Of a DNA stretch of 64,000 nt, positions 26,298 to 59,950 are shown one piece after another. Positions within the stretch are counted from its first letter, which is position 1, and the number at the start of each line of letters is the position of its first letter. The stretch covers positions 1-64,000 of the forward strand of contig NZ_SSXU01000012.1 of assembly GCF_009469605.1 (NCBI RefSeq), in the 5' to 3' direction. A program made the position numbers and the translations under genes. A model generated the notes under the pieces. It saw nothing but the letters and a program-made list of their open reading frames with translations, was not told where the DNA came from and searched no databases. This DNA comes from Zoogloea sp. 1C4 (GTDB lineage Bacteria; Pseudomonadota; Gammaproteobacteria; Burkholderiales; Rhodocyclaceae).

Positions 26298-26339
26298 GTG
26301 GGCCACCGCACGTAGCCAATACGCTTTTTGGACTAAGCT
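26298..26339 (+). promoter_or_regulatory. Dyad promoter site 1 (crp-PAS gene)
   Basis: GTGGGCCACCGCAC (26298-26311; one mismatch in the left arm of GTNCG-N4-CGNAC) is followed after exactly 22 bases by TAAGCT (26334-26339). No recognisable -35 box is present. Gene start is at 26405. Confidence 0.7.
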
Positions 26340-26404
26340 GAATCGACTGCGATGGCACTTCCGCGCACCCATTCACGGCAGGCTTCCACAGGCAGGAGGG
26401 GCGA

Positions 26405-27739
26405 ATGCCCGACAACATCTTTGACGGTGCGCGACAGAACCGCATCCTGGCGGCGCTGCTTCCCGACGAGTACGCCAGGCTGGCGGACGACCTGGAGTTC
26501 GTGAGCCTCACCGCCGGCCAGACGATCCTCGAATCGGGGGACGATCTGACCAGCGTGTATTTTCCGACCACCTGCATCTTCTCGCTGATCTCCAGCCTCA
26601 AGGATGGCTCGTCGGTGGAGCTGGCGATGACCGGCAACGACGGGCTGATCGGCATTCCGCTGGTCCTCGGCGGCGACACCGCCAACTACCGGATCGTCGT
26701 CCAGCACGCCGGCGGCGCCTACCGCCTGCGGGCCGAGCTGATGAGCTGGGAGCTCAACCAGGGCGGCAACCTGCGGCGCATGTCCCTGTGCTACACCCAG
26801 GCCCTGATGACCGAGATGGCCCAGAGCGTGCTGTGCAACCGGCACCACACCGTCGACCAGCAGCTGTGCCGGTGGCTGCTCCGCAACCTCGACCAGATCT
26901 CCGGCATGCAGCTCGACGTCACCCAGGAGACGATCTCCAACCTCCTCGGGGTGCGCCGCGAAGGCGTCACCGAGGCCGCCTGCAAGCTCCAGTCCGCCGG
27001 CCTGATCCAGTATCGCCGCGGCCACATCACGGTGCTCGACCGGGCTGGGCTGGAGTCGCGGGCCTGCGAGTGCTACGCCATCGTGCGCGCCGAATACCAG
27101 CGCCTGCTCCGCCTGATGGCGGCGAGCCTCGCCACCCGGCGCGCCCGCCCCAACCCGGCCACCCTGCGCCAGCGCGCCGAAGCCCGCCTCAAGCTGACCA
27201 GCCCGGCAACCGACGGCAGCATGCCGTGGGACACCGCCCACCTGCTCCACGAGCTGCAGGTGCACCAGATCGAGCTGGAGATGCACAACGAGGAGCTCCG
27301 CCAGGCCTACGACGAGGCCGACGCCCTGCGGGAGAAATACGCCGACCTCTACGACTTCGCGCCGGTGGGCTATTTCACCCTCGACAACCAGGGCACCATC
27401 CTGCAGATCAACCTGGCGGGGGCGATCCTGCTCGGCATCAAGCGCTCGCAGATGGGGCGCCTGCGCTTCGGCGCCTTCGTCAAGCCGGCCTTCCTGCCCG
27501 AGTTCAACGCCTTCGTGGATGAGGTGCTCGGCGGCAAGGCCCGCAACAAGTGCGAGATCGCCCTGATGGCCACTGCCCAGCGGCCGGAGGTGCTGGTGCG
27601 GATCGAGGCGGTGGCCGACGAGGCCCGCCGGGAATGCCGCATCGTGGTGGTGGAAGTGGCCGAGAAGGGCTGGCCCCGCCAGAAGGCCGGCGCCAGGCCG
27701 GCCACCGACGCACCGCGGGGGCTCGACACGCTGCAGTAG
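26405..27739 (+). CDS. Crp/Fnr-family regulator fused to a C-terminal PAS domain, 444 aa
   Basis: Residues 1-150 form a cyclic-nucleotide-binding-like barrel (LPDEYARLADDLEFVSLTAG, then TSVYFPTTCIFSLIS). A Crp-type HTH follows at about 172-215 (QETISNLLGVRREGVTEAACKLQ, wing YRRGHITVLDR). Unusually, the protein then continues through the linker [17 protein letters not shown] into a PAS domain (about 315-420; LYDFAPVGYFTLDNQGTILQIN). Ordinary family members end near residue 240. The barrel lacks the standard cAMP-contact Arg-Ser pair, so its ligand is unclear. Its promoter carries the shared dyad, which fits autoregulation or mutual control with the other two paralogues. Confidence 0.88.
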   Translation: MPDNIFDGARQNRILAALLPDEYARLADDLEFVSLTAGQTILESGDDLTSVYFPTTCIFSLISSLKDGSSVELAMTGNDGLIGIPLVLGGDTANYRIVVQHAGGAYRLRAELMSWELNQGGNLRRMSLCYTQALMTEMAQSVLCNRHHTVDQQLCRWLLRNLDQISGMQLDVTQETISNLLGVRREGVTEAACKLQSAGLIQYRRGHITVLDRAGLESRACECYAIVRAEYQRLLRLMAASLATRRARPNPATLRQRAEARLKLTSPATDGSMPWDTAHLLHELQVHQIELEMHNEELRQAYDEADALREKYADLYDFAPVGYFTLDNQGTILQINLAGAILLGIKRSQMGRLRFGAFVKPAFLPEFNAFVDEVLGGKARNKCEIALMATAQRPEVLVRIEAVADEARRECRIVVVEVAEKGWPRQKAGARPATDAPRGLDTLQ

Positions 27740-27755
27740 CGGCGAGCCCCCGCGG
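27713..27755. terminator. 13-bp-stem hairpin between converging genes
   Basis: CCGCGGGGGCTCG (27713-27725) pairs perfectly with CGAGCCCCCGCGG (27743-27755). The left arm and loop contain the end of the crp-PAS coding region, so the stop codon is in the loop. It can end transcription from both sides. Confidence 0.8.
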
Positions 27756-27768
27756 GCATTTCAGCGGA

Positions 27769-28602
27769 TCAGACAGCCGGCCAGGGTGGCACGCTCTCCG
27801 GCACCTCGTCGGTGCGCACGATGAAGCGCTTCAGGGCGTTGGGCCCGAAGGTGTTGCTGATCGCCACGTCGGCCGCGTCGCGCCCCCGGGCGATGAGCAC
27901 CCGGCCGATGCGCGGCGTGTTGTTGCGGGCATCGAAGGTGTACCAGTGGCCGTCGAGCCACACCTCGAACCAGCCGGCAAAATCCATCGGGCCGTAGGGC
28001 GGCGGCATCCCCATGTCGCCCAGGTAGCCGGTGCAGTAGCGCGCCGGAATGTTCAGGCAGCGGCAGAAGGTGATCGCCAGGTGGGCGTAATCCCGGCACA
28101 CGCCGACCCGCTCGTGGAACACGTCCCAGGCGGTCTTGGTGTGGCGGGCGTGCTCGTAGCCGAAGGCGATGTGGCTGTGCACGTGGTCGCACACCGCCTG
28201 CACCCGCGCCCAGCCCGGCGGCGTGTGGCCAAACAGCTTCCAGGCCACGTCGGTCAGGCGGTCCGTCTCGCAGTAGCGGCTGCCCAGCAGAAACAGCAGC
28301 GTCTCGTCGGGCAGCTCGGTCACCGGGGTCTGGCGGGCGTTGGGCACCACGACGTCGGGCAGCCCGCTGTCGTGGACGATGGCGTCCGTCGTCAGGCGCA
28401 GCGTGCCCTTGGGGGCCAGCAGCCGCGAGCACCAGTTGCCGAAGGTGTCCCGGTAGGCCGTCACCGGCACCGCCGGCTCGGTGACCAGCAGGTCGGGGGT
28501 GATGAGATCGGCCACCCGGGAGGCGTGGACGGTCAGCGTCAGGATCATCGGGGTGGGCTGGGGGCAATCGTAGATCAGGTCGAAACCGATGCGGATCTTC
28601 AT
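27769..28602 (-). CDS. Transglutaminase-like cysteine protease of the Anbu cluster, 277 aa
   Basis: A bacterial transglutaminase-like domain. The N-terminal beta region (IGFDLIYDCPQPTPMILTL) is typical, the catalytic Cys lies in ERVGVCRDYAHLAITFCR, the His in FEVWLDGHWYTFDARNN, and the Asp just after it. This triad is intact. The family occurs with Anbu peptidase genes in many bacteria, as here, three genes downstream of a Crp-type regulator. AGGAG lies six bases before the ATG. Likely cytoplasmic; whether it cuts or crosslinks is not known. Confidence 0.88.
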   Translation of the reverse strand: MKIRIGFDLIYDCPQPTPMILTLTVHASRVADLITPDLLVTEPAVPVTAYRDTFGNWCSRLLAPKGTLRLTTDAIVHDSGLPDVVVPNARQTPVTELPDETLLFLLGSRYCETDRLTDVAWKLFGHTPPGWARVQAVCDHVHSHIAFGYEHARHTKTAWDVFHERVGVCRDYAHLAITFCRCLNIPARYCTGYLGDMGMPPPYGPMDFAGWFEVWLDGHWYTFDARNNTPRIGRVLIARGRDAADVAISNTFGPNALKRFIVRTDEVPESVPPWPAV

Positions 28603-28638
28603 GGCGGGCTCCTGGGGGAAGGGGGCGATGGAACGGGG

Positions 28639-29370
28639 TCAGCGCGGCGCAGCGGGCGGATCGCCGGCGAGGGCGTCGCGCAGCGCGGTGACGATGGCCT
28701 CGCGCAGGGCCGGCCAGTGGCTGCCCGTGCCGAGGATGTGCTGCTGATTCACTTCAAGCTCCACGCCCACGTAGCTTTCGGGCGACAGGCGCTGGCGCAG
28801 CCAGGCGGTCAGGCCGTCGCCCTTGCCGGCGTAGGGGTAGTTGCGGCGGATGTTGAGCGCCGGCAGGCGGGCGCCGAGGGCGGCCTTCCAGCGCTCGCAG
28901 AGGGCGGCTTCGCCGGGTCGCCGGGGGTCGTAGAGCAGGCCGATGTCGGCGGTGCGGCGCTTGCCGTCCAGCTCCGGCGTGAAGCTGTGGGACGACAGGT
29001 GGAGCACCGCGCCGTGTTCGGCGATGGCGGTGCGGATGGCCTGCTCGGCGCGGCTGCGGTAGGGGCGGTAGAAGCGCGCCAGGATCTCGGCCTTCTGCCC
29101 CTCGCCCAGGCTGCGGACGGGGCCGGCATGCAGCCGCGGGTGGCCCACCGAGCGGTTCAGGTCCACCAGCAGGCGGCTCACGGTGGACGACACCAGCGGC
29201 GCGCCAAAGGCCCGGGCCAGGTCTTCGGCCATCTCCAGGGCGCCGGGGTCGAAACCCCGGTGGCTGGCCAGCGCGGCCTGCAGGTCGCCGAAGAGGGCGC
29301 GGTACAGGGCCGGGATGTGGTTGCCCCCGTGCTCGCAGGTGACCACCACGCCGGGAGCCGGCCCGGTCAT
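28639..29370 (-). CDS. N-formylglutamate amidohydrolase-family protein, 243 aa
   Basis: Matches the PF05013 family: an early metal-binding CEHGGNHIP, DLNRSVGHPR, HLSSHSFTPEL and DIGLLYDPRRPGE, with GVELEVNQQH near the end. Known members hydrolyse N-formylglutamate; related ones act on other N-acyl amino acids. ATG 29370 overlaps the stop of the Anbu gene by one base (TGATG), so translation is coupled. Being inside an Anbu operon suggests it acts on a glutamate-type modified product of that system rather than in histidine breakdown; no hut genes are nearby. Confidence 0.82.
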   Translation of the reverse strand: MTGPAPGVVVTCEHGGNHIPALYRALFGDLQAALASHRGFDPGALEMAEDLARAFGAPLVSSTVSRLLVDLNRSVGHPRLHAGPVRSLGEGQKAEILARFYRPYRSRAEQAIRTAIAEHGAVLHLSSHSFTPELDGKRRTADIGLLYDPRRPGEAALCERWKAALGARLPALNIRRNYPYAGKGDGLTAWLRQRLSPESYVGVELEVNQQHILGTGSHWPALREAIVTALRDALAGDPPAAPR

Positions 29371-30089
29371 CACCAGTCCAGCCGGGGCAGGCGGCGGAAC
29401 ACTTCGCGGGTGCCGGCGCTCCATTCGTCGCCAAGCCGGGCAAAGTAGCCGTCGCCCTCGTCGAAACGGCGGCGCATGCGCACTTCGAGGCTGTTGCGCT
29501 GGTAGCAGATCAGGTCGATGGGCATGCCCACCGACAGGTTGCTGCGCATCGTCGAATCGAAGGACACCAGCACGCACTTGGCGGCGTCGTTGAGGGTGGT
29601 GGCGCGGGTGATGCCCCAGTCGATGACCGGCTTGCCGTACTTCGTCTCGCCGGTCTGCAGGTAGGGCGTCTCGAGGCTGGCCTCGATGAAGTTGCCCTCG
29701 GCGTAGATGCGGAACAGGTGGGGCGGCCCGCCGGCGATCTGGCCGCCGAAGACGAAGGAGGCGTTGAAGCCGGTTTCCTCCAGGTATTCCCCGTCGCGGC
29801 GATCCACGTCGCGCATGGCGTCGGAGACCAGCATGGCCGCGTCGAACATCGACGCCGCCTGCCACAGGGTGGCGCCCTCGGCCCGCTCGTTGCGCTGCTT
29901 GAGCAGGCTGATCACCGCCTGGGTGCCGGCCAGGCTGCCGGAACTGAGCAGCACCAGCACCCGGTCGCCGGGGCGCTCGAAGACGGTCATCTTGCAGAAG
30001 CGGGCAAAGTTGTCGACGCCCGCGTGGGTCCGGGAGTCGGACGCGAAGACCAGTCCGGTGTCGAGCATGATGCCAACGCAGTAAGTCAT
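29370..30089 (-). CDS. Anbu, proteasome-like Ntn hydrolase, 239 aa
   Basis: After removal of Met the protein begins with Thr (TYCVGIMLDTGLVFASDSRT). That gives the nucleophile Thr1, Asp17 (in ASDSRT) and Lys32 (FARFCKM), the catalytic set of proteasome beta subunits. The length and sequence (HAGVDNF, VLLSSGSLAGTQAVI, GGQIAGGPPHLFRIYAEGNFIEA) identify the Anbu group (COG3484). Anbu forms open helical rings and has no proven substrate. The usual neighbours are a transglutaminase, an alpha-E domain protein and an ATP-grasp enzyme; only the first is present here. It starts 13 bases after the Crp-type gene. Confidence 0.92.
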   Translation of the reverse strand: MTYCVGIMLDTGLVFASDSRTHAGVDNFARFCKMTVFERPGDRVLVLLSSGSLAGTQAVISLLKQRNERAEGATLWQAASMFDAAMLVSDAMRDVDRRDGEYLEETGFNASFVFGGQIAGGPPHLFRIYAEGNFIEASLETPYLQTGETKYGKPVIDWGITRATTLNDAAKCVLVSFDSTMRSNLSVGMPIDLICYQRNSLEVRMRRRFDEGDGYFARLGDEWSAGTREVFRRLPRLDW

Positions 30090-30102
30090 GGCAGAGGGTG
30101 AT

Positions 30103-30834
30103 TCACGGTTGCGGTTGGGTTCGGGCAGCGGCGGGCATCGCCATGCTGCGCTGGTAGCAGACCTTGTCGGCGGCGTAGCAGCCGCAGGCCGCGGCCTCCA
30201 GGCCGGCCCGATCGATCACGGTGATGTCGCCCCGGGCGTAGCGGATCAGCCGGCGGTTCTGCAGCGTGGTGGCGGCGCGGGTGATGCCCACCCGGCGCAC
30301 CCCCAGCACGTTGGCCAGGAACTCGTGGGTGAGATGAAACTGGCTGGAATGGGCGCGGTCCTGGGTCATCAGCAGCCAGCGGGCGAGGCGCGCCTCGACC
30401 ACATGAAAGCGGGTGCAGCCGGCGGTCTGGGCCAGCTGGCCCATCTGGGCGTGGATGTAATGGCGCAGCACCCGGGTCAGTGCCGGGCTGCGCGCCAGCT
30501 CCCGGCGAAAGCGGCCGGCCTCGATGCGCAGCGCCTCGCCCGGCTCCTGCACCAGCGCCTGCTGGGGCGATTCCGCCACATCCAGCACCAGCGAGGCGCC
30601 AAGGGCTCCTTCGTCGCCCACCAGCCCGACTTCCAGATTGGCGTGGCCGTCGATCCGGGCCACCTGGACGATGGCGCAGCGGATGGGAAACCACACCTCG
30701 CGGATCGGCTCGCCGGCTTCGGCAAGGATCGCGGCGAAATGCAGTTCGACGGGTTCGCAGTGATCCAGCAGACGCCCGCGTTCGGTGGCCGGCAGGGCTT
30801 CGAGCAGGCGGTTGGCAGCGACGGTTGACGGCAC
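30103..30834 (-). CDS. Crp/Fnr-family regulator heading the Anbu operon, 243 aa
   Basis: GTG 30834 was chosen because GGAGG lies seven bases upstream. A cNMP-binding-like barrel (residues 10-130; EVWFPIRCAIVQVARIDG) and dimer helix lead to the HTH at about 175-215 (THEFLANVLGVRRVGITRAATTLQ, wing YARGDITVIDR). The recognition segment differs from the two other paralogues (RRVGITRA instead of RREGVTEA). The C-terminus has cysteines (AACGCYAADKVCYQRS). It is followed by Anbu, the amidohydrolase and the transglutaminase as one operon under a shared dyad promoter. Confidence 0.88.
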   Translation of the reverse strand: MPSTVAANRLLEALPATERGRLLDHCEPVELHFAAILAEAGEPIREVWFPIRCAIVQVARIDGHANLEVGLVGDEGALGASLVLDVAESPQQALVQEPGEALRIEAGRFRRELARSPALTRVLRHYIHAQMGQLAQTAGCTRFHVVEARLARWLLMTQDRAHSSQFHLTHEFLANVLGVRRVGITRAATTLQNRRLIRYARGDITVIDRAGLEAAACGCYAADKVCYQRSMAMPAAARTQPQP

Positions 30835-30891
30835 GGGAGGCCTCCGGTTAGGCGGCGCCGGGGGTCGGCGCCGTGGGGATCGACCCGCTGC

Positions 30892-30933
30892 AGCGTGGGC
30901 CGATCGTCGCCCCCTGTCGGGGCGGTAGCGCAC
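30892..30933 (-). promoter_or_regulatory. Dyad promoter site 2 (crp-anbu operon)
   Basis: On the minus strand GTGCGCTACCGCCC (30933-30920, one mismatch in the last arm) is followed after 22 bases by CACGCT (30897-30892). The predicted transcript start leaves about a 50-base leader before GTG 30834. Confidence 0.65.
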
Positions 30934-30956
30934 GCAGGCCCGCCCCGGTTTCCGGC

Positions 30957-31277
30957 CTACACGCCCCAGGTGACCGGCACGCCGTCGGCAGCCGCCCGTT
31001 CCAGCATGTCAAGCAGCGGCACCGCGCGCTGGTGAAAGCTCACGCCTTCCCCTTCGTCGGCTATCGGCTGGGGCGCGGCGGCAGCCTTGACGATATAGGT
31101 GGCCACGTCGTCGGCGATGGCCCGGCGCAGGCAGGCGATGGCCGCCGGCAGCTGTTCCACGGTGAAGATGCCCTGGCCGTCGTCCCGGTCCTTGCCGAGG
31201 ACTTTCAGCATCTGGCGGGCGTTCTTCTCGAAGGTGATGAGGTCGCCGGAGGCGGCGGACTTGAAGGTGATCAACAT
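30957..31277 (-). CDS. DUF1840 protein, 106 aa
   Basis: MLITFKSAASGDLITFEKNARQML is the hallmark start of DUF1840, and the rest (GIFTVEQLPAAIACLRRAI, then VSFHQRAVPLLDMLERA) follows the family pattern. These small cytoplasmic proteins are found mainly in betaproteobacteria and have no known function. It is divergent from a DUF883 gene; the region between carries one dyad promoter for each direction. Confidence 0.85.
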   Translation of the reverse strand: MLITFKSAASGDLITFEKNARQMLKVLGKDRDDGQGIFTVEQLPAAIACLRRAIADDVATYIVKAAAAPQPIADEGEGVSFHQRAVPLLDMLERAAADGVPVTWGV

Positions 31278-31306
31278 GATGGGCGTCCTTTCCAGGGTTG
31301 CAGCCC

Positions 31307-31348
31307 AGTGTGCGCAGGAAGGGCCGGCGGGTCTGTGCGCTACCGAAC
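31307..31348 (-). promoter_or_regulatory. Dyad promoter site 3 (DUF1840)
   Basis: Minus-strand GTTCGGTAGCGCAC (31348-31335), identical to the site before the crp gene at 44493, is followed after 22 bases by CACACT (31312-31307). Confidence 0.8.
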
Positions 31349-31370
31349 CAAGGCCCCGGTACGCCGCTGC

Positions 31371-31412
31371 GTACGTTGGCGCACCGACATCGGGTACCAC
31401 CAGGGCCACGAT
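31371..31412 (+). promoter_or_regulatory. Dyad promoter site 4 (DUF883/CsbD operon)
   Basis: GTACGTTGGCGCAC (31371-31384) is followed after 22 bases by CACGAT (31407-31412). The first gene starts at 31489. Confidence 0.8.
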
Positions 31413-31488
31413 GCAGCCAGAGGAGCCCGTGGCCCAAACCCCCGGCGCCGATCGCCCCGCACTCAATCCATTTGCAGCAGGAGACATC

Positions 31489-31821
31489 ATGACCACCGAA
31501 ACCACCGCTCTGCAGGACACCGGCGACAGCCGCCGGTCCGGCTTCGTGAATGACGTGAAGCACGCCGCCGGCCGCGCCGACGAGCTGATGACCGACGCCG
31601 CCAACACCACGGCGGAAGGCTACGCCGCGGCCCGCGCGAGCCTCCACGAGGCGATGGGCGAGGCCCGCTCCCGCTACGACGACACCCGCAACCGGATGGC
31701 CCACAAGGCCCGCGTGGCGGCCGACGTCACCCAGACCTACGTGAAGGAAAACCCCTGGCAGGTGCTGGGGGGTGCCGCGGTCGCCGGCTTTCTCATCGGC
31801 TTTCTGATGAGCCGGCGCTGA
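31489..31821 (+). CDS. DUF883 membrane-anchored stress protein, 110 aa
   Basis: A helical body with amphipathic repeats ends in the DUF883 tail VKENPWQVLGGAAVAGFLIGFLMSRR, a single C-terminal membrane anchor with terminal arginines. GGAG eight bases upstream supports ATG 31489. It is a paralogue of the gene at 18751 but is driven by the shared dyad, so the two copies are probably used under different conditions. CsbD follows 56 bases later. Confidence 0.9.
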   Translation: MTTETTALQDTGDSRRSGFVNDVKHAAGRADELMTDAANTTAEGYAAARASLHEAMGEARSRYDDTRNRMAHKARVAADVTQTYVKENPWQVLGGAAVAGFLIGFLMSRR

Positions 31822-31877
31822 ACGGCGCGTCCGGCCGGCAATTCCGCCGTCCGGCAGATCAACACAAGGAGTCGAAA

Positions 31878-32102
31878 ATGAACTGGGACATCGTTGAAGG
31901 TAACTGGAAGCAATTCAAGGGCAAGGTCAAGGCGCAGTGGGGCAAGCTCACCGACGACCACCTGGACGTGATCGCCGGCAAGCGCGACGACCTGTCCGGC
32001 AAGATCCAGGAAGCCTACGGGATCACCAAGGACGAAGCCGAGGCGCAGCTCAAGAAGTTCGAGGACGCCAACAAGGATTCACCGCCGAAAAGCCCGTCCT
32101 GA
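31878..32102 (+). CDS. CsbD-family stress protein, 74 aa
   Basis: MNWDIVEGNWKQFKGKVKAQWG and the KLTDDHLDVIAGKRDDLSGKIQ block are diagnostic of CsbD. These small, hydrophilic, highly abundant proteins are induced by general stress (sigma-B in Bacillus, RpoS-like conditions elsewhere). Biochemical role unknown. AGGAG precedes the ATG. It lies in the same transcription unit as the DUF883 gene. Confidence 0.95.
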   Translation: MNWDIVEGNWKQFKGKVKAQWGKLTDDHLDVIAGKRDDLSGKIQEAYGITKDEAEAQLKKFEDANKDSPPKSPS

Positions 32103-32196
32103 CCCGTTCGCGCCATGCGGGGGCCTCGCAGCACGCCCCGCGCATGGCACGGCACGGGCCCAGGCGGGCCGGCAATTACATGGAAGGATTGTGGTC

Positions 32197-32385
32197 ATGA
32201 ACACATTCATGCGTTTCACCCCCCGGGCGGGGCCGGTCGACGGCCCCGTCAGCCTCTCCCCCTTTGCAACCCAGATGGCCGAGCGCCTGAGCGCCCGGCA
32301 GGCCCGGCGCCCGCGGACGCCGCTGAAGGTGTGGGAAGACGAAGGCGGCAGTCTGGCCGCCCCCGTCGCCGCGCCGCCCCTGTGA
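32197..32385 (+). CDS. Small hypothetical protein, 62 aa
   Basis: ATG 32197 with AAGGA eight bases upstream; a GTG at 32191 is the alternative. The product (MNTFMRFTPRAGPVDG onwards) has an Arg-rich segment (AERLSARQARRPRTP) and an acidic KVWEDEGG. No family is recognised. Its stop overlaps the next gene's GTG start (GTGA), so both are translated together. Confidence 0.55.
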   Translation: MNTFMRFTPRAGPVDGPVSLSPFATQMAERLSARQARRPRTPLKVWEDEGGSLAAPVAAPPL

Positions 32386-32570
32386 AGCCCGGCAAGGACG
32401 CCACCGAAGACTGGCTCGACCGCGAATGCCCCCGCTGCGACAGCTCCGCCTACCGGGTGCCGCGCCGCTTCGTGGATGTGCTGCGCGGCCTCTTCGGCGC
32501 GGTCCGGCGATACCGATGCACGGCGATGGGCTGCGGCTGGGAGGGCAACCTCCGCCCGCCACGCCACTGA
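32382..32570 (+). CDS. Small zinc-ribbon protein, 62 aa
   Basis: Starting at GTG 32382, overlapping the preceding stop, this frame encodes a protein with Cys16-x2-Cys19 (RECPRCDSSAYRVPRR) and Cys46-x4-Cys51 (RYRCTAMGCGWEG). The paired knuckles and aromatic/Arg pattern look like a small zinc ribbon. No full-length homologue is recalled. It is easily missed because of the GTG start and its size. Likely cytoplasmic, possibly nucleic-acid binding. Confidence 0.65.
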   Translation: MKPGKDATEDWLDRECPRCDSSAYRVPRRFVDVLRGLFGAVRRYRCTAMGCGWEGNLRPPRH

Positions 32571-32622
32571 ATCCCCGGGGTTGGCAGGCATCCCCGGCCG
32601 GCCCCCGAAACACCTCCCCAAT

Positions 32623-32643
32623 CTTCCCGGCCCTGCCGGGAAG
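32623..32643. terminator. Hairpin between converging units
   Basis: CTTCCCGGC (32623-32631) and GCCGGGAAG (32635-32643) form a perfect 9-bp stem with a CCT loop. The 188-base gap around it contains no gene. Confidence 0.75.
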
Positions 32644-32758
32644 CGCACGTTCACCCGGCCGGTAAACGGGCACGCCCCGGCCCGGCCATTTGCACGGCCT
32701 TGCCGGGGCTGCCCGGAACATCCCCCGCCGACACCCCAAAGCGCCGGCGGGCACCGGC

Positions 32759-33607: not shown

Positions 33608-33630
33608 GGTCGTTCCTTTTGTCTGGGCAA

Positions 33631-34017
33631 TCATTTGTTCTTGCGGCCGAGCTCTTCGCGCAGCACGCGGATGCCTTCCTGCAATTCGTCGGCGGCCTTG
33701 CGGGCCTTCACCGAGCGCGACTTGGCCTCGGCGAGCTGGGCGTCCACCTGGGCCTGCTGGGCAAACCGGCGGGCGCTGTCGAAGTCCTCGCTGACCATGG
33801 CGCGCTTGGCCAGGTCGAGCTTCTCCCGCGCCATCTGCATCTCGGCGGGGGCCATCTCGCTGCCGCCGGCGCTGCCGGCCCGGCCGACCGCGGCGGTGGA
33901 CACGGCCAACTGTTCGACGGGGGCGGGCGTGCTGGCGCAGCCGCCCACAAGCATCGCCGCGGCGGCGACGAGTACCGGCAGGCCGAACCGGAGAGCTCCG
34001 GCGGATCGGGTTTTCAT
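33631..34017 (-). CDS. DUF4398 lipoprotein, 128 aa
   Basis: The signal peptide ends in a lipobox (AAAAMLVGGCAST). The mature part is a helical hairpin (APAEMQMAREKLDLAKRAMVSEDFDSARRFAQQAQVDAQLAEAKS), the DUF4398 pattern also found at the start of the OmpA-type neighbour. The pair appears to be a duplication in which one copy gained the peptidoglycan-binding domain. First gene of the operon behind dyad site 5. Confidence 0.88.
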   Translation of the reverse strand: MKTRSAGALRFGLPVLVAAAAMLVGGCASTPAPVEQLAVSTAAVGRAGSAGGSEMAPAEMQMAREKLDLAKRAMVSEDFDSARRFAQQAQVDAQLAEAKSRSVKARKAADELQEGIRVLREELGRKNK

Positions 34018-34089
34018 GGTGATTCCCTTCGTTGAATGAAGCGGCTGACCGGCTGGGCGGAAGCCCGCCGCGTCTTGGCTCACCGGCCG

Positions 34090-34131
34090 AGCATGCACGG
34101 GACGTGCGGCGCGGTCGGTGCGCTGACGCAC
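34090..34131 (-). promoter_or_regulatory. Dyad promoter site 5 (DUF4398/OmpA operon)
   Basis: Minus-strand GTGCGTCAGCGCAC (34131-34118), a perfect five-base arm dyad, is followed after 22 bases by CATGCT (34095-34090). Confidence 0.85.
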
Positions 34132-34165: not shown

Positions 34166-34207
34166 GTGCGGCAGCGCACCGACCCCGCAACGCCTTGTGG
34201 CTAGGCT
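34166..34207 (+). promoter_or_regulatory. Dyad promoter site 6 (DUF3422/ndvB operon)
   Basis: GTGCGGCAGCGCAC (34166-34179) is a perfect arm dyad, identical to site 15 before the VIT gene. After 22 bases comes TAGGCT (34202-34207). Confidence 0.87.
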
Positions 34208-44379: not shown

Positions 44380-44413
44380 GGCCGGATATGTTCGGTAGCG
44401 CACATATCCGGCC
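44380..44413. repeat. 34-base near-perfect palindrome after ndvB
   Basis: Arms GGCCGGATATGT and ACATATCCGGCC surround the dyad core TCGGTAGCGC; only one base pair inside the arms mismatches. It can act both as a terminator for ndvB and as an extended operator, because dyad site 7 is its centre. Confidence 0.75.
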
Positions 44414-44431
44414 GCCATGGGTGCCTATACT
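44390..44431 (+). promoter_or_regulatory. Dyad promoter site 7 (crp gene at 44493)
   Basis: GTTCGGTAGCGCAC (44390-44403) is followed after 22 bases by TATACT (44426-44431), the best -10 box of the set. Leader to ATG 44493 is about 55 bases. Confidence 0.88.
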
Positions 44432-44492: not shown

Positions 44493-45212
44493 ATGGTCAG
44501 CGCCGACAACGCCCGCGGAAACCAATTGCTCGCTGCCCTGCCGGATGCCGAATCCCAGCGCATCCTGCCCCAGCTGGAGGTCGTGGACATGCCCCTCGGG
44601 CAGGTGCTGTACGAATCCGGCCGGCAGCTCAGCCACGTGTATTTCCCCACCACCGCCATCGTCTCGCTGCTCTACGTGATGGAAAACGGCGCCTCGGCCG
44701 AGATCGCCGTGGTGGGCAACGAGGGCATCGTCGGCATCTCCCTCTTCATGGGCGGCGAAACCACCCCCAGCCGGGCGGTGGTGCAGAGCGCCGGGCGCGG
44801 GCTGCGGCTGCGCGCACCGGCGATCAAGGACGAGTTCAACCGCACCGGCCCGGTGATGCACCTGCTGCTGCGCTACACCCAGGCCCTCATCACCCAGATG
44901 GCCCAGACCGCCGTGTGCAACCGCCACCACTCCCTCGACCAGCAGCTGTGCCGCTGGCTGCTGCTGAGCCTCGACCGCCTGTCGGGCAACGAGCTGGTGA
45001 TGACCCAGGAGCTCATCGCCAACATGCTCGGGGTGCGCCGCGAGGGCGTCACCGAAGCCGCGCTGAAGCTCCAGGCCGCCGGGCTGATCCGCTACGCCCG
45101 CGGCCACATCACGGTGCTCGACCGGGCCGGGCTGGAGGCCCGCACCTGCGAGTGCTACGCCGTGGTCCGCAAGGAATACGACCGCCTGCTCCCCTCGCGC
45201 ATCGCAAGCTGA
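44493..45212 (+). CDS. Crp/Fnr-family regulator, 239 aa
   Basis: A full-length family member: barrel (LEVVDMPLGQVLYESGRQLSHVYFPTTAIVSLL), dimer helix (MHLLLRYTQALITQMAQTAVCNRHHSLDQQLCRWLL) and HTH (TQELIANMLGVRREGVTEAALKLQ, wing YARGHITVLDR). No Fnr-type N-terminal cysteine set is present. It is closely related to the N-terminal half of the Crp-PAS protein at 26405, sharing the recognition segment RREGVTEA, so both may bind the same dyad. Its own promoter carries that dyad. This is the most ordinary of the three and the best candidate regulator of the region. Confidence 0.9.
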   Translation: MVSADNARGNQLLAALPDAESQRILPQLEVVDMPLGQVLYESGRQLSHVYFPTTAIVSLLYVMENGASAEIAVVGNEGIVGISLFMGGETTPSRAVVQSAGRGLRLRAPAIKDEFNRTGPVMHLLLRYTQALITQMAQTAVCNRHHSLDQQLCRWLLLSLDRLSGNELVMTQELIANMLGVRREGVTEAALKLQAAGLIRYARGHITVLDRAGLEARTCECYAVVRKEYDRLLPSRIAS

Positions 45213-45236: not shown

Positions 45237-45278
45237 GTTCGCTATCAGACAGACCGCTCCCGGCCTGCCCCATAAGCT
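45237..45278 (+). promoter_or_regulatory. Dyad promoter site 8 (secreted protein and ABC transporter)
   Basis: GTTCGCTATCAGAC (45237-45250; last arm CAGAC instead of CGNAC) is followed after 22 bases by TAAGCT (45273-45278). Gene start is at 45329. Confidence 0.7.
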
Positions 45279-45848: not shown

Positions 45849-47563
45849 ATGATCCCCTTCGACGGTCAGCTCCTCCGGCGCTTCTGGCAGATTGCCGGGC
45901 CCTACTGGTTCAGCGACGGCCGGCGGGGCGCCCTGGGGCTGCTGGCGCTCCTCGTCGCGCTGCTCTTCGGCCAGGCCCTGTTCGCGGTGCTCCTCAACGC
46001 CCAGACCGGCGAATTCACCTCGGCGCTGGCCGCCCACGACGAGGCGCGGTTCTGGTCATCGATCCGCCAGTGCCTGGTGCTGCTGGTGGTGGCGGTGCCC
46101 ACCCACGCCTTCTACTACTACGTCCGCGACACCCTCGGCCTGCGCTGGCGGCGCTGGCTGACCCGCGACTACCTCTCCGCCTACCTGGGCAACGGGATGT
46201 ACTACCGGCTGAACGCCAGCGCCGAGATCGACAACCCGGACCAGCGGATCGCCGAGGACATCAACACCTTCACCCAGAAATCCCTCCAGTTCCTGCTCGT
46301 GCTGGCCAGCGCGGTGCTGCAGCTGGCGGCCTTCTCGGGCGTCCTGTGGGCGATCTCCCGGGAGCTGGTGCTGTTCCTGATCGTCTATGCGGTGGTGGGC
46401 ACCACCGTCACCGTGCGCCTGTTCGGGCGGGTGCTGGTAGGGCTCAACTTCAACCAGCTCCGGCGCGAGGCGGATTTCCGCTTCAGCCTGGTGCGCATCC
46501 GCGAGCACGCCGAGGCGATCGCCTTCTACGCCGGCGAAGCGCGCGAATCCCGCCAGGTGGACCAGCATTTCGACGCGGTGTACGGCAACGCCAGCCGGCT
46601 CATCGGGGCGCAGCTCCGGCTGAACCTGTTCCAGTACGCCTACAGCTTCATGACCATCGTGCTGCCCAGCGCGATCATCGCCGGGCGGGTCCTGTCCGGC
46701 GAGCTCGAGGTGGGCCGGGCCATCCAGGCGGCCGGCGCCTTCGCGGCGATCCTGGCGGCGCTGGCGGTGATCGTCGACAACTTCGAGAGCTTCAGCAAGT
46801 TCGCCGCCGGCATCGACCGGCTGGACAGCTTCGCCGGCTTCATGGACGGGAAGCACGACGCCACCAGCGACGAGCGCATCGAGTTCGTCGAGGATTCGCG
46901 GATCCACATCGACGGGCTGACCCTGTGGACGCCGAACCGCGAGCGCACCCTGATCTGCGACCTGTCCCTCTCCATCGACCCCGGCCAGAGCCTGATGATC
47001 GTCGGCGCCAGCGGCTGCGGCAAAAGCTCGCTGCTGCGGGCCATCGCCGGCCTGTGGCGGTCCGGCCACGGGCGGATCGGCCGGCCTCCGGCGACATGCT
47101 GTTCCTGCCCCAGCGCCCGTACATGCTGCTGGGCAGCCTACGCAGCCAGCTGCTCTACCCCCGGCAGGACCAGGCCATCCCCGACGCCGAACTGCTGGCC
47201 GTGCTCGAGCAGGTCAACCTGCCCGATCTGGTGGCCCGCTTCGGTGGCCTCGACGCCGCCCAGGACTGGGCCAAGGTGCTGTCGGTGGGCGAACAGCAGC
47301 GGGTGGCCTTCGCCCGGGTGCTGCTGGCGGCCCCGCGCTACGCGGTGCTCGACGAAGCCAGCAGCGCCCTCGACGTGGCCAACGAGGACCGCCTCTACAC
47401 CCTGCTCGCCGCCACCGGCATCACCCTCGTGAGCGTCGCCCACCGGGCCTCGATCCGCCACTTCCACCGCCAGGTGCTGGATTTTCGCAGCGACGGCAGC
47501 TGGACGCTGCACGGCGCGGGATCTGTGCGCAGGCGTACAGACGCGCCGCGGGTCGCCTCCTAG
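45849..47563 (+). pseudogene. ABC transporter permease-ATPase with a one-base frameshift
   Basis: A fused exporter-type half-transporter of the YddA/SbmA-like ABC group: about five to six helices, then an ATPase. The first frame encodes the permease and Walker A (IVGASGCGKSSLLRAIAGLW) to about residue 412. At 47085-47089, after GGCCGGCC, one base is missing and the reading passes into another frame. That frame carries DMLFLPQRPYMLLGSLRSQL, the signature SVGEQQRVAFAR and Walker B YAVLDEASSALD to a TAG at 47561. Restoring one base gives a normal 571-aa protein. As it stands the ATPase is split between Walker A and the signature. It may be a true recent mutation, an assembly error, or less likely recoding. 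Confidence 0.85.
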
Positions 47564-48972: not shown

Positions 48973-49014
48973 GTTCGCCAGCGTACGGAATACCCGGATC
49001 AATGGGCGCAGGAT
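48973..49014 (+). promoter_or_regulatory. Dyad promoter site 10 (ysc84-like)
   Basis: GTTCGCCAGCGTAC (48973-48986) is followed after 22 bases by CAGGAT (49009-49014). Start codon is at 49121. Confidence 0.82.
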
Positions 49015-50042: not shown

Positions 50043-50201
50043 CTAGATGCGGCCCAGCAGCACGAGGACGAGCAGGATCACGACGATGAAGCCGATGCCT
50101 CCGCTCGGGCCGTAGCCCCAGCTCTGGCTGTGGGGCCAGCTAGGGAAGGCGCCGATCAACAGCACGATGAGCACGATCAGCAGAATGGTTCCGATGGACA
50201 T
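50043..50201 (-). CDS. DUF3309 small membrane protein, 52 aa
   Basis: [37 protein letters not shown] and [15 protein letters not shown] give the classic DUF3309 layout: one helix, a WPHSxxWGYGPSG loop, a second helix. It lies at the head of a two-gene minus-strand unit with DUF1328. Function unknown, usually stress-linked. GGAG-type ribosome site (rc of ACCTC) is seven bases from the ATG. Confidence 0.93.
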
Positions 50202-50237: not shown

Positions 50238-50278
50238 ATGCTACGCAGCAGGGCCGGCGCGTCTGTGCGCCATCGAAC
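50238..50278 (-). promoter_or_regulatory. Dyad promoter site 11 (DUF3309/DUF1328)
   Basis: Minus-strand GTTCGATGGCGCAC (50278-50265) is followed after 21 bases by TAGCAT (50243-50238). It is the only site whose spacing is off by one. Confidence 0.75.
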
Positions 50279-50297: not shown

Positions 50298-50339
50298 GTG
50301 CGCCAGCAGACAGACGCCCCGTCCCATCTCCCGCAGGCT
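50298..50339 (+). promoter_or_regulatory. Dyad promoter site 12 (CX10C-repeat protein)
   Basis: GTGCGCCAGCAGAC (50298-50311; right arm CAGAC as in site 8) is followed after 22 bases by CAGGCT (50334-50339). The leader to ATG 50483 is unusually long, about 135 bases. Confidence 0.75.
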
Positions 50340-51094: not shown

Positions 51095-51109
51095 CCGGCT
51101 TCTGCCGGC

Positions 51110-51247: not shown

Positions 51248-51289
51248 GTTCGCTGGCGTACATACAGCCGGCACCGCGACGACCACAAT
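51248..51289 (+). promoter_or_regulatory. Dyad promoter site 13 (KaiC-like operon)
   Basis: GTTCGCTGGCGTAC (51248-51261) is followed after 22 bases by CACAAT (51284-51289). Confidence 0.82.
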
Positions 51290-53211: not shown

Positions 53212-53230
53212 GCCCTGGCGACCCGCCACC

Positions 53231-54007: not shown

Positions 54008-54096
54008 ACGCCCCCGGCGTCAGCAATGCCTCATCCCGCCGGCCGATCAGGCGGATAATCCATAAGACGAACTACGAACCTGAATCGAAATTCCGT

Positions 54097-56655
54097 ATGC
54101 GCTGCGCACCTCCCCTCGATTCAACCCCGGTAGAAACACCCGATGCGCAGCCCCGGCAGCGCCCGGACTGCCCCATCGTCGGCATCGGCTGCTCGGCCGG
54201 CGGGCTCGAAGCCCTCGAAGCCCTGCTCGGCCATGTGCCCGACGGCACCGGCATGGCCTTCGTGATCGTCCAGCACCTCGACCCAGAGCACGTCAGCACC
54301 CTCCCGGAGATCCTCCAGCGCATCACCCCGATGCCGGTCATCGAGGTCGCCGAAGGCATGGTCGTCGCGCCGGAGCACGTCTATGTGATCCCCCCCAACA
54401 AGGATCTGTCCCTGCTGGGCGGCGTGCTCCACCTGCTCGACCCCACCGCCCAGCGCGGCCTGCGCCTGCCCATCGACTTCTTCCTGCGCACCCTGGCCGC
54501 CGACCGCCAGGAGCGGGCCATCGGGGTGATCCTCTCCGGCATGGGCTCCGACGGCATGGCCGGGCTCGCGGCGATCAAGGAAAAGGGCGGCCTCACCCTC
54601 GCCCAGGACCCGGCCAGCGCCCGCGCCGACAGCATGCCCGCCAGCGCCATCAAGGCCGGCGTGGTGGATATCGTCGCGCCCGCCGAAGCGCTGGCCGAGC
54701 GCATCGCCGCCTTCCTGCGGCACGTTCCGCGCCCGCCCCAGCCCGACGCCGCGCCGGGCGAGCAGGGCGCCCTCGAACGGATCATCGTGCTGCTGCGCAA
54801 CCGCAGCGGCAACGACCTCTCCCTCTACAAGCCGAACACCCTGCTCCGGCGCATCGAGCGGCGCATGGCCCTGCTCCAGATCGCCGCCATCGCCGACTAC
54901 GTGGGCTACCTGCGCGACAACCTCCAGGAACTCGACCTGCTGTTCAAGGAGCTCTTGATCGGCGTCACCAGCTTCTTCCGCGATCCGCCCGTGTGGGATT
55001 ACCTGCGCGACGTCGCCCTACCGGCCCTGTTCGCCCGTCACCCCGACGGGCAGGCGCTGCGGGCCTGGGTGCCGGCGTGCTCCACCGGCGAGGAAGCCTA
55101 CTCGCTGGCCATGGTGTTCCGGGAAGCCCTCGACAACACCCGGCCGCCGGGCCAGTTCTCGCTGCAGATCTACGCCACCGATCTCGACCCCGACGCCGTG
55201 GACCGGGCCCGCCGGGCCTGCTACCCCGCCAACATCGCCGCCGACGTGACGCCGGAGCGGCTGGCCCGCCACTTCGTTGCCGAGGACGACGGCTTCCGGC
55301 TCAACCGCGAGCTGCGCGAGATGGTCATCTTCGCGCCCCACAACCTCATCTCCGACCCGCCCTTCACCAAGCTCGACATCCTGTCGTGCCGCAACCTGCT
55401 GATCTACTTCGGCCAGGAACTGCAGAAGAAGGTCCTGCCCCTGTTCCACTACGCCCTCAACCGGGACGGCATCCTGGTGCTCGGCAGCGCCGAGACCATC
55501 GGCGGCTTCGACGCCCTGTTCTCGCCCCTCGACAAGAAGACCCACATCTTCCGGCGCACCGAACACCGCAACCAATCCTCGTGGCTGGATTTTCCCGCCC
55601 GCACCCCGGCCGGCCCCGCCAGCACCGACGGCAGCCGGCCCGACTTCCGCGACAGCGTCGAATACCTCACCGACCAGCTCATCCAGCAGCACTACGCGCC
55701 CGCCGCGGTGCTGGTCAATGGCGAAGGCGACATCCTGTACATCAGCGGGCGCACCGGCAAATACCTCGAACCGGCCGCCGGCAAGGTCAACATCAACCTC
55801 CACGCGATGGCCCGCGAAGGCCTCCGCGACGCCCTCACCGGCGTGATCGGCAAGGCCCTGCGCCAGCCCCAGCCGATCCACCTCAACGGCCTGCAGGTCG
55901 AAGGCAACAGCCACCCCCAGCTGGTCAACATCACCGTCCAGGGCATCGACAAGCCCGAAGCCCTGCGCAACCGGGTGCTGGTGGTGTTCAACGACGTCAA
56001 GGCACCGCCCGGCAACCGCCGGCCGCGCAGGCAGCTGGCGTCCGAACGCGAAAGCGCCCTGCTGCTCGAACTCGCCCAGCTGCGCGAAGCCCTGCAGATC
56101 AGCCGTCAGGAGATGCAGGCCTCCCTCGAGGAAGCCAAATCGGCCAACGAGGAGCTGCAGGTCACCAACGAGGAACTCACCACCTCGAAGGAAGAGCTGC
56201 AATCCATGAACGAAGAGCTGCAGACCATCAATGCGGAGCTGCAATCCAAGGTGGACGACCTCACCTGGGCCCGCAACGACATGACCAACCTGCTCAACAG
56301 CACCGAGATCGCCACCGTCTTCCTCGACAGCGAGATGCGACTGCGCCGCTTCACCACCCACGCCACGCACCTGTTCAAGTTCATCCCGGGCGACGTGGGC
56401 CGGCCCCTGTCCGACATCGTCACCGACCTGGACTACCCCGGCCTGCAGAACGACGCCAGCGCCGTGCTCACCACCCTGATCTACTGCGAGAAGCAGGTCA
56501 GCACCGGCGACGGCCGCTGGTTCCGGGTGCGCATCATGCCGTACCGGACCCAGGACAACGTGATCGACGGGGTGGTCCTCACCTTCATCGACATCACCGC
56601 CATCAAGCAGCTCGAAGCCAAGCTGCGCAAGCGGGAGAATCGCCGTGACCACTGA
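54097..56655 (+). CDS. CheB-CheR fusion with coiled coil and PAS, 852 aa
   Basis: Residues about 25-200 are a CheB methylesterase domain with Ser33 (GCSAGG), His60 ([10 protein letters not shown]) and Asp near 153 (GMGSDGMAG), a complete triad but no receiver. Residues about 220-490 are a CheR methyltransferase ([50 protein letters not shown]). Then follow a coiled coil (about 650-730, repeated NEELQ..NEEL) and a PAS domain (about 735-845). Such fusions signal outside the classic chemoreceptor array. The next gene overlaps by 11 bases. Confidence 0.92.
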
Positions 56656-58057
56656 AGACACCGACGAGCCTGACCAGCGACCCTACACCACGCCCCTCCG
56701 GCAGGCCGCCGAGGCCCGGCTGGTGCATGAACTGCAGGTGCACCAGATCGAGCTCGAGATGCAGAACGAAGAGCTGCGCCGGGCCCGGGCCGAGACCGAC
56801 GCGGCCCTCGACCAGCTCCACCAGCTCAACGCCCACCTCGAAACGCTGGTTGCCGCCCGCACCGCCGAGCTCGTGGCCGCCCGCGACGCCGCCGAGGCCG
56901 CCGACCGGGCAAAGACCCACTTCCTCGCCAACATGAGCCACGAGATCCGGACGCCCCTGAACGGCATCCTCGGCATGGCCCACCTGCTGCGGCGCAGCGG
57001 CCTCACCCCCACCCAGGCCCACCAGCTCGACAAGATTGAAGTGTCAGGCCGCCATCTGCTGGCGGTCCTCAACGACATCCTGGATTTCTCGAAGATCGAG
57101 GCCGGCCGCCTCGAACTGGAAACCGTGGATTTCACCCTCGACGAGCTGGTGCGCGACGTCACCGCCATCGTCACCGACAGCGCCGCCGCCAAGGGCCTCC
57201 GGCTCGACATCGACACGGCCGGCATCCCCCGCCACCTCCGGGGCGACCGGGTGCATCTGGCCCAGGCGCTGCTCAACTACGTGGGCAACGCCATCAAGTT
57301 CACCGCCGCCGGCAGCGTCACCCTCAGCGCCCGGCTGCTCGAAGAAACCCGGCAGGGCTACCTGCTGCGCTTCGACGTGGTCGATACCGGCATCGGCATG
57401 ACGCCGGAACAGCAGGCCCAGCTCTTCCGGCCCTTCACCCAGGCCGACAGCTCCACCACCCGCCGCTTCGGCGGTACCGGGCTGGGGCTGGCCATCACCC
57501 GGCGGCTCGCCCAGCTGATGGGCGGCGAGGTGGGTGTCAAATGCACGCCAGGCGAGGGCTGCCGCTTCTGGCTCACGGCGCGGCTGGGCAAAGGCCGGCC
57601 CACCCGCCCGGCCCCCGACATGCGGGACCGGGAGCACGCCGAGCTGATCCTCCGGCGCGACTACCGGGGCGCCCGGGTGCTCGCCGTGGACGACGACCCG
57701 GTCAACCTGGATGTGCTGCTGAGCCTGCTGCTGAACCTCGGCCTGGCGGTCGACATCGCCAGGGACGGCGCCGAGGCGCTGCGCCTGGCCCGCGAGAAGC
57801 CCTACGCGCTGATCCTGATGGACCTGCAGATGCCCCTCATGGGCGGGCTGGAGGCCAGCCGGGCGATCCGACGCCTGCCGGGCCACGCCAGCACCCCCAT
57901 CGTCGCCATCACCGCCAGCGCCTTCGTCTCCGAGCGGGAGGCCTGCCTCGCCGCCGGGATGAGCGACTTCATCGCCAAGCCGCTGGATGTGGATGCGTTT
58001 TTCGGGACGCTGCTGCAGTGGCTGCCCCCGCCACCCGCTCAGGTCTGCAGCACGTAA
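56645..58057 (+). CDS. Hybrid histidine kinase with C-terminal receiver, 470 aa
   Basis: Starts at GTG 56645, overlapping the CheB-CheR gene by 11 bases. An N-terminal [17 protein letters not shown] coiled coil, also found in the Crp-PAS linker, is followed by HisKA with His99 ([12 protein letters not shown]), HATPase_c ([20 protein letters not shown]) and a receiver with Asp393 (LILMDLQMP). There is no sensor domain, so the CheB-CheR/PAS protein is the probable input. The gene end overlaps the converging phaC gene by 19 bases. Confidence 0.92.
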
Positions 58058-59781
58058 GTGCCCGGCGCCGCGCCCAGGGTCGCCAGCCCGCCAGCCGCAT
58101 GGCCCATCGACGGCGGATCACCGGGCGGGCCGGAGCGCGCATCGAGCCACGCCCGCCACGCCGGCCACCACGACCCCTCTGACGTGGGCGCCGCCGCCAG
58201 CCACGCGTCCGGCGCAAGGTAGCGCCCGTCGTGGGGCCGGGTGAGCATCTGGTAGCTGCGCCCGGGCACGCCCGGCGGATTGACGATGCCCACGTTGTGG
58301 CCACCGGAACTGAGCAGGAAGGTGACCGGCACGTCGGCGAGCAGGTGCAGCTTGTGCACCGATCGCCACGGCGCCACGTGGTCGCGCAGGGTGGAGACGC
58401 AGAAGATCTCGCAGGTGATGTCGGTCAGCGCCACCGGGCGGTCGCCCACCGGGTAGCGGCCGCTGGCCAGGTCGTTGTCGAGGAACAGCCGGCGCAGGTA
58501 TTCGGCGTGCATCCGGTAGGGCAGGCGGGTGCCGTCCACGTTCCAGGCCATCAGGTCGCTCATCGGGCGGCGCTCGCCCATCAGGTAGTCCTTGAGCATC
58601 CGCGACCACACCAGATCGCGGGAGTTGAGCAGCTGGAAGGCCCCGGCCATCTGGGTGGTGTCCAGGTAGCCCCGATCCCACATGATGTCCTCCAGAAAGC
58701 TCACCTGGCTGTTGTCGATGAACAGCGCCAGCTCCCCCGGCTCGGTGAAGTCGGTCTGGGCCGCCAGCATCGACACCGACGCCAGCCGCTCGTCCCCGTC
58801 GCGCCCCATGGCCGCGGCGGCGATCGCCAGCAGCGTGCCGCCCAGGCAGTAGCCGGCGGCGTGGATCCGCTGCCCCGGCACCACCGCGGCCACTGCATCG
58901 AGGGCATCCATCACCCCCAGCCGCAGGTAGTCGTCCATGCCCAGGTCGCGCCCCTCGGGGCCGGGGTTGGCCCACGAGATGGCGAACACCGTGTAGCCCT
59001 GATCCACCAGAAAGCGGACCAGCGAATTGGCCGGCGACAGGTCGAGGATGTAGTACTTCATGATCCACGAGGGCACCAGCAGCACCGGCTCCGGCCGAAC
59101 CTGCGGGCCGGCGGGGGCGTACTGGATCAGCTCGATCAGCCGGTTGCGGAAGATCACCTGCCCCGGCGTGACCGCCACCTCGTGACCCACCCGAAAATGC
59201 TCGGCCCCCGGCGGCGGCGATTCGGACTGCAGGTGACGGGCGTCCGCCATCAGGTTTCGCAGGCCCTCCACCAGATTGGCGCCGCCGGTCTGCGCGGTGC
59301 GTTCGAGCACCTCGGGGTTGGCCCACGGAAAGTTGGCCGGCGACAGCACGTCGAGCAGCTGCCGGACGGTGAAGCTCACCACGTTCTCGTGGTGCCGCGA
59401 CACGCCGTGGACGCCGGTGGTGGCGGCCTTCCACCAGGCCTCGGTGAGCAGGAAGGACTGGCTCATCACGTTGAACGGCCACGCCTGCCAGCCCGGATGG
59501 TCGAAGCGGTGGTCCTGCACGCCCGCCTCGATGCCCGGGCGCCCGGCCGGACGGCCCGCCTCCAGCAGCAGGCCAGGCAGCCTGGCCCAGGCATCGAGCC
59601 AGGCCTGAGCCAGCTCGGCCTGCTCCGCCGGGTTGTGGGACAGGTGCATCAGCCAGTCGTCGAAGGCCATCGCCAGCGCCACCGGGGAGATGCCGCCGGT
59701 CAGGTGCGAGAACTGGGCATGCACGAAACGGTCTAGATTGCTGCCCGGTCGGGGCAGCACGGCGGGGGGAACATGGGTCAC
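58039..59781 (-). CDS. phaC: Polyhydroxyalkanoate synthase, class I-like, 580 aa
   Basis: Polymerises hydroxyacyl-CoA into PHA storage granules. The N-terminal PHBC_N region ([28 protein letters not shown]) and the alpha/beta-hydrolase core are present, with lipase-box Cys near residue 311 (GYCLGGT), Asp in [10 protein letters not shown] and His in [14 protein letters not shown], the full catalytic triad. Length fits class I. GTG 59781 is preferred, with GAAGG nine bases upstream. It is alone, without phaA/phaB, and is controlled from a dyad promoter shared back-to-back with a VIT-family transporter. Confidence 0.93.
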
Positions 59782-59820
59782 GGAATCAACCTTCGGCGTG
59801 CGCGCGAATTGACGCAGCCC

Positions 59821-59862
59821 ATCATCTCCACCCCGCGCCACCGCGTCTGTACGAGAGCGCAC
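59821..59862 (-). promoter_or_regulatory. Dyad promoter site 14 (phaC)
   Basis: Minus-strand GTGCGCTCTCGTAC (59862-59849) is followed after 22 bases by GATGAT (59826-59821), the weakest -10 box of the set. Confidence 0.72.
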
Positions 59863-59908
59863 CAAGCCCGGCCCGCAAGTGCGCGACAATCCCGGCGGGG
59901 TGACGGCG

Positions 59909-59950
59909 GTGCGGCAGCGCACAGACCCGCACGCAGGCCAGCCGCATAGT
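59909..59950 (+). promoter_or_regulatory. Dyad promoter site 15 (VIT-family gene)
   Basis: GTGCGGCAGCGCAC (59909-59922), identical to site 6, is followed after 22 bases by CATAGT (59945-59950). Confidence 0.85.

Follow-up and report, generated by a model that had tools for sequence, protein, structure and literature searches.

Which regulator acts on a group of neighboring promoters that share the same palindrome is the question raised by a 64,000-nt stretch of the genome of Zoogloea sp. 1C4 (contig NZ_SSXU01000012.1, positions 1 to 64,000), here called the window. An initial annotation, made from the letters alone, had listed 15 copies of the dyad GTNCG-N4-CGNAC in a cluster of about 34 kb and had attributed them to a probable Crp-type regulator acting from near position -41.5. 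The dyad indeed keeps one promoter spacing, is conserved in other genomes, and is associated with genes for Crp proteins. Judged from sequence comparison, it very probably represents a class II (-41.5) operator of the Crp/Fnr subfamily with the helix LGVRREGVTEAA, to which the products of genes 44493 and 26405 belong (genes are named by their first coordinate), and autoregulation of these genes is probable.

All 15 copies were recovered, 11 of them exact and 4 with one mismatch (Table 1), and all 15 are intergenic according to the calls of a simple in-house gene scorer, on which intergenic status rests throughout this work (depending on its settings, the intergenic DNA of the window totals 8254 or 6139 bp). 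The same counts as before were obtained for the gene-facing NANNNT hexamer, which follows after a gap of 22 bases in 14 of the 15 dyads and of 21 bases in the exceptional dyad at 50265; the gene starts lie 57 to 171 bp from the dyad. When all dyads of the window with up to one mismatch were combined with NANNNT, gap 22 was found 16 times (15 intergenic) and every other gap from 16 to 29 between 0 and 6 times. The window contains 12 exact dyads, compared with a mean of 2.44 and a maximum of 8 in 100 shuffled sequences, and 11 of them are located in the 33.7-kb cluster, where about 0.64 would be expected from the genome-wide rate. The remaining one, at position 4407, lies inside a gene and outside the cluster, and the earlier statement that the first 26 kb are free of such sites is therefore nearly, but not literally, right.

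In the 5.02-Mb genome as a whole, the exact 14-bp dyad was counted 96 times and the reversed-pattern control 123 times; the loose dyad is thus not enriched genome-wide, and the signal is local. A tighter palindrome, GTDCGNYRNCGHAC (the tight dyad), occurs 30 times (control, 11), i.e., 9 times in the cluster, always intergenic, and 21 times elsewhere; of these 21 copies, 19 overlap called genes or frames, and the other 2 are intergenic. The latter, the only intergenic tight sites found beyond the cluster, form a divergent pair at C107:4099 and C107:4150 (L050, G000:C107:2099-6163) between a Dps gene and the gene of an unclassified protein, and both have NANNNT at gap 22. A 20-bp form of the site, TCTGTDCGNYRNCGHACAGA, yielded 8 hits with up to two mismatches (control, 1), all of them within the cluster, and 54 hits with up to three mismatches (control, 20). 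Further, weaker targets beyond the cluster are possible among these 54 sites. The description of the sites as locally clustered applies to all eight strong 20-bp sites and has its exception in the divergent tight pair.

The conservation of the dyad was assessed at 80 loci that were fetched by the Crp protein alone and represent the best 80 among the matches listed; they include Variovorax, Hydrogenophaga, Rubrivivax, Collimonas, Thiocystis, Rhodanobacter, and others, and some of them stem from the same or closely related species. Tight dyads are present 156 times in their intergenic DNA (266 kb) and 13 times in coding DNA (1.10 Mb), exact dyads 209 and 30 times, respectively, and at least one intergenic exact dyad was detected at 71 of the 80 loci. 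At some loci (L101, L117, L146, and L036 among them), much of the DNA was left uncalled by the gene scorer, which dilutes the intergenic density. A dyad search in the intergenic DNA of all 80 loci (5-mer halves, spacers of 0 to 12, halves without G dropped before ranking) returned GTGCG-N4 as the top 5-mer dyad, with 46 occurrences versus 1.0 expected from coding DNA, and GTnCG-N4 as the top gapped dyad once runs of N were set aside (209 versus 6.5 expected). Among the targets at these loci, the Crp cluster ranks first: a site is found at most 350 bp upstream of the genes of 67 of 151 Crp-cluster proteins versus 314 of 1657 proteins overall, a comparison that carries some bias because the loci are Crp centered.

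A second line of evidence comes from 60 genomes, i.e., that of the window and 59 relatives, in which a search for Crp orthologs found matches in 22 (the window's own genome and 21 relatives). Twenty stretches around the Crp loci of 10 of these 21 relatives contain 44 exact dyads in 74.5 kb of intergenic DNA and 4 in 320 kb of coding DNA, and the tight dyad was found 37 times in the intergenic and never in the coding portion. In 20 control stretches away from Crp loci, taken from the genome of the window and from seven of these 10 relatives (eight genomes in total), there was no exact dyad in 53 kb of intergenic DNA, and 9 were present in 347 kb of coding DNA. The mean count of 20-bp sites is 10.6 (control, 2.1) for the 22 genomes with Crp and 3.9 (control, 1.3) for the 38 genomes without it, a difference with a Mann-Whitney P value of 4e-6 if relatedness is ignored. 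A profile-based recheck of 12 of the 38 genomes without Crp revealed a Crp relative in only two of them, namely, a weak match in G023 (E value of 4e-10) and one truncated at a contig end in G045; both genomes have an excess of sites. G059 and G048 each have a single Crp match, and in both a site is located about 110 to 120 bp upstream of the crp gene. A wider sample of the phylum contained a Crp homolog at an E value of 1e-30 in 53 of 299 genomes, and 29 of these loci were read, including that of G042, which is also part of the set of relatives. An intergenic exact dyad was present at 13 of 22 loci with at least 56% identity and at 0 of 7 loci with less than 45% (P = 0.008); four of the 13 positive loci belong to another class of the phylum.

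The geometry of the promoters was evaluated on the 277 promoter sides of the 80 loci. The hexamer TANNNT occurs on 64 sides at gap 22, on 13 at gap 23, and on 6 at gap 21, versus 0 to 4 sides at each of the remaining gaps from 10 to 49, and the looser NANNNT is found at gap 22 on 111 sides and at gap 23 on 35, compared with about 9 at other gaps. The gap-22 peak, seen in the window, in the relatives, and at the 80 loci, would place the center of the dyad at -41.5 relative to a -10 box, as in class II promoters and as the initial annotation had proposed. In a sequence logo built from the 118 sides whose -10 box lies at gap 22, the promoter-near half of the dyad extends strongly as ACAGAC and the far half (TnT) only weakly, so that the previously suggested TCTGT..ACAGA flanks hold on the gene-near side but not as a symmetric extension. 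The trinucleotide GAC at positions -33 to -31, 17 bp from the -10 box and overlapping the near half of the dyad, was found on 70 of the 111 sides that have a -10 box at gap 22, compared with 26 of the 136 sides that lack one at gap 22 or 23. These positions are the place of the -35 TTGACA core, and the "extension" of the dyad therefore largely corresponds to the -35.

The window encodes three candidate binders, and all three crp genes are preceded by a dyad. PF13545, the Crp-type winged helix, scores above the cutoff in the proteins of 26405, 30103, and 44493, and the barrel domain PF00027 reaches 30.4 bits in 44493 (cutoff, 27.5), remains below the cutoff in 26405, and has no match at an E value of 0.01 in 30103. 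The predicted structure of 44493 (predicted local distance difference test score, 86) shows the Crp/Fnr fold, with CRP, FNR, and GlxR as its best matches in the PDB. The Glu of the GlxR motif GELS is opposite a gap in 44493 in the printed alignment, which would make cAMP binding doubtful. Arg180 of CRP reads the G of TGT. In the helix VRREGVTE, the counterpart of this residue is present and the position of CRP Arg185 is occupied by Glu, a combination that would agree with a retained TGT and an altered inner half-site. The cysteines of 44493 are located at positions 142, 153, 219, and 221, with none before 142. Within the Crp subfamily, the motifs CNRHH (residues 142 to 146) and CECY (219 to 221) show conservation, and they could be part of a metal or redox site. 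C142, H146, C219, and C221 are invariant in 30 of 30 proteins, but this invariance was set aside as evidence for such a site, because part of the conservation was selected by locus search patterns that contained QTA[VA]CNRH.

Compared with known systems, the sites resemble the class II promoters of CRP in the Crp fold of 44493, in the distance of the TGT from the dyad center, in the central position of -41.5, and in the weak -10 box. The consensus operator of CRP is TGTGA-N6-TCACA, whereas the consensus found here is TGTnCG-N4-CGnACA, with the half-site TGTnCG in place of TGTGA. FNR, ANR, and FixK share the superfamily and the promoter position, and FNR of A. fischeri is among the best fold matches of 44493, but their operator TTGAT-N4-ATCAA differs from the present one. 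FNR binds its [4Fe-4S] cluster through N-terminal cysteines, and 44493 lacks such an N-terminal cysteine cluster. The low-oxygen-activated (lxa) locus of B. cenocepacia is comparable as a clustered stress and persistence locus in Burkholderiales; no motif or regulator in common with it was established, as none was sought. Our limited literature search found no described binding site of this kind, but the spelling "Crp/Fnr" was poorly matched and absence from print does not follow; the main text of PMC5343134 contains no word starting with Crp or Fnr. The Crp/Fnr subfamily is left unnamed here.

Taken together, the spacing peak, the association across 60 genomes and 80 loci, the sites in front of crp genes, and the controls devoid of intergenic sites speak for the Crp-type regulator of the initial annotation. 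A Crp dimer centered at -41.5 would contact RNA polymerase in the class II manner and would activate promoters whose -35 is only partial (nnGACn, in overlap with the near half-site) and whose -10 box (NANNNT), at a distance of 17 bp, is weak. The promoters of the regulators themselves carry the dyad, and the circuit is therefore probably autoregulated; in this genome, almost all strong sites fall within a single 34-kb cluster of genes of stress and envelope types. Several observations weigh against an operator of this Crp subfamily. Nine of the 80 named loci have no intergenic exact dyad, 9 of the 22 close-homolog loci of the phylum sample have none within about 1.5 kb, and the Crp-locus stretches from G042 and G040 contain no tight site. 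NANNNT is missing on about half of the 277 promoter sides, in part because divergent regions contribute both sides to the count. G035 (8 versus 7) and G040 (10 versus 8) possess a Crp gene but hardly any excess of 20-bp sites, and the counts are raised in G050 and G051 without one. The 14-bp dyad was discarded as a marker for the 60 genomes, as it separates those with and without Crp only weakly (P = 0.04) and often stays below its control; background dominates these counts, and the 20-bp form performs better. Moreover, the named loci are Crp centered, and association with Crp genes is no proof of Crp binding. The excess in G050 (16 versus 2) was not used as support, since 9 of the 10 listed sites are spaced at multiples of 60 bases and look repeat-like; this 20-mer array extends over C1:473772-476671.

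The Crp proteins could also act as repressors at the same operator, covering the -35 and thereby shutting the promoters off, and the overlap of the near half-site with the -35 core is a point in favor of this explanation. Repressor sites usually scatter in position, however, and a single sharply fixed spacing (22, sometimes 23) in combination with a partial -35 and a weak -10 has the appearance of activator dependence, which makes repression unlikely. It is also conceivable that the second-type paralog 30103, with the helix LGVRRVGITRAA, is the main binder or a competitor for the same sites, given that its own gene carries a site with one mismatch and that much of the helix is shared. We consider this rather improbable, because the RREG helix was read at 11 of the 13 dyad-positive homolog loci (no helix was read at the other two) and because, within the Crp cluster, an upstream site accompanies RREG (51 of 93) more often than RRVG (10 of 35; P = 0.01), albeit at loci that are RREG centered.

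An unrelated regulator that binds the dyad and merely has Crp genes among its targets would be compatible with the association and the upstream position taken alone. It becomes very improbable in light of the fact that loci picked by the Crp protein alone show the dyad, that the 20-bp form follows the presence of Crp over 60 genomes, that close but not distant Crp homologs are accompanied by the dyad, and that the spacing of the TGT is that of Crp sites. Finally, a chance pattern in GC-rich DNA, for which the genome-wide count of the loose dyad could be invoked, is hardly credible and was already contradicted by the local clustering, the intergenic placement, the fixed gap, and the conservation elsewhere.

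With a Crp-type operator as the preferred explanation, the target genes can be compared among genomes (families were named through one representative, and their P values are uncorrected for multiple testing). At the 80 loci, a site is present in 12 of 23 cases for BON, 10 of 27 for CsbD, 8 of 22 for DUF3309, 8 of 13 for DUF4398, 6 of 7 for Ysc84, 5 of 10 for PRC barrel, and 4 of 7 for glycine zipper proteins; the value for DUF5670 (3 of 7) is not significant. With Crp left aside, a site accompanies 33 of 72 homologs of the window targets, compared with 48 of 202 homologs of the other genes in the window (P = 0.0005). In G011, a member of the same genus, sites are located at the best homologs of DUF1840, DUF883, DUF4398, Ysc84, DUF3309, Crp, and the second-type Crp, and none was found at those of CbpA and Crp-PAS. 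In other loci, no site was seen at the homologs of PhaC (0 of 2), VIT (0 of 3), and DUF3422 (0 of 1); PhaC and VIT are therefore weaker targets and were not retained as core members. A role in general stress would fit the families Anbu, CsbD, DUF883, DUF3309, Ysc84, OmpA/DUF4398, BON, and Dps. Only tentatively, one might envisage a proteobacterial stress system without a dedicated sigma factor, in which an autoregulated Crp trio, including one paralog with a PAS sensor and one with a changed recognition helix, uses its own TGTnCG code to switch on the proteasome-like Anbu operon as well as envelope and DNA-protection proteins in response to a signal read by an unusual set of conserved Cys/His residues. 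The present observations would provide a concrete operator and promoter code for a widespread Crp/Fnr subfamily, and tying CsbD, DUF883, DUF3309, Ysc84, DUF4398, BON, and Anbu to one regulator would open a way into their function.

Table 1. Dyads of the cluster, their -10 hexamers and predicted promoters, and selected genes (positions in the window)
Feature	Position	Strand	Remarks
Dyad (1 mismatch)	26298..26311	+	-10 TAAGCT 26334-26339; predicted promoter of Crp-PAS gene 26405
Crp/Fnr regulator	26405..27739	+	HTH_Crp_2; helix LGVRREGVTEAA; C-terminal PAS
Anbu (proteasome-like peptidase)	29370..30068	-	Downstream of crp 30103, same strand
Crp/Fnr regulator, second type	30103..30834	-	Helix LGVRRVGITRAA
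Dyad (1 mismatch)	30920..30933	-	-10 CACGCT; predicted promoter of crp 30103
Dyad	31335..31348	-	-10 CACACT; predicted promoter of DUF1840 gene 30957-31277
Dyad	31371..31384	+	-10 CACGAT; predicted promoter of DUF883 gene 31489, followed by CsbD gene 31878
Dyad	34118..34131	-	-10 CATGCT; predicted promoter of DUF4398 gene 33631-34017, followed by OmpA/DUF4398 gene 32759
Dyad	34166..34179	+	-10 TAGGCT; predicted promoter of DUF3422 gene 34303, followed by GH94/glucan synthase-type gene 35586
Dyad	44390..44403	+	-10 TATACT 44426-44431; predicted promoter of crp 44493
Crp/Fnr regulator	44493..45212	+	Helix LGVRREGVTEAA; predicted likeliest binder of the dyad
Dyad (1 mismatch)	45237..45250	+	-10 TAAGCT; predicted promoter of gene 45329 (no Pfam/NCBIfam match)
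Dyad	47525..47538	+	-10 TAGGCT; predicted promoter of CbpA-like DnaJ gene 47699 and MerR_2 gene 48626
Dyad	48973..48986	+	-10 CAGGAT; predicted promoter of Ysc84 gene 49106
Dyad	50265..50278	-	-10 TAGCAT, gap 21; predicted promoter of DUF3309 gene 50043-50201, followed by DUF1328 gene 49829
Dyad (1 mismatch)	50298..50311	+	-10 CAGGCT; predicted promoter of gene 50483 (no Pfam/NCBIfam match)
Dyad	51248..51261	+	-10 CACAAT; predicted promoter of gene 51356 (without family match), followed by KaiC-like gene 51757 and GGDEF gene 53231
Dyad	59849..59862	-	-10 GATGAT; predicted promoter of PhaC gene 58039-59781; no site seen at 2 homologs
Dyad	59909..59922	+	-10 CATAGT; predicted promoter of VIT1 gene 60048; no site seen at 3 homologs

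With respect to the Crp-PAS type of regulator encoded by gene 26405, long open frames of at least 440 amino acids are also present at the Crp matches of several relatives.

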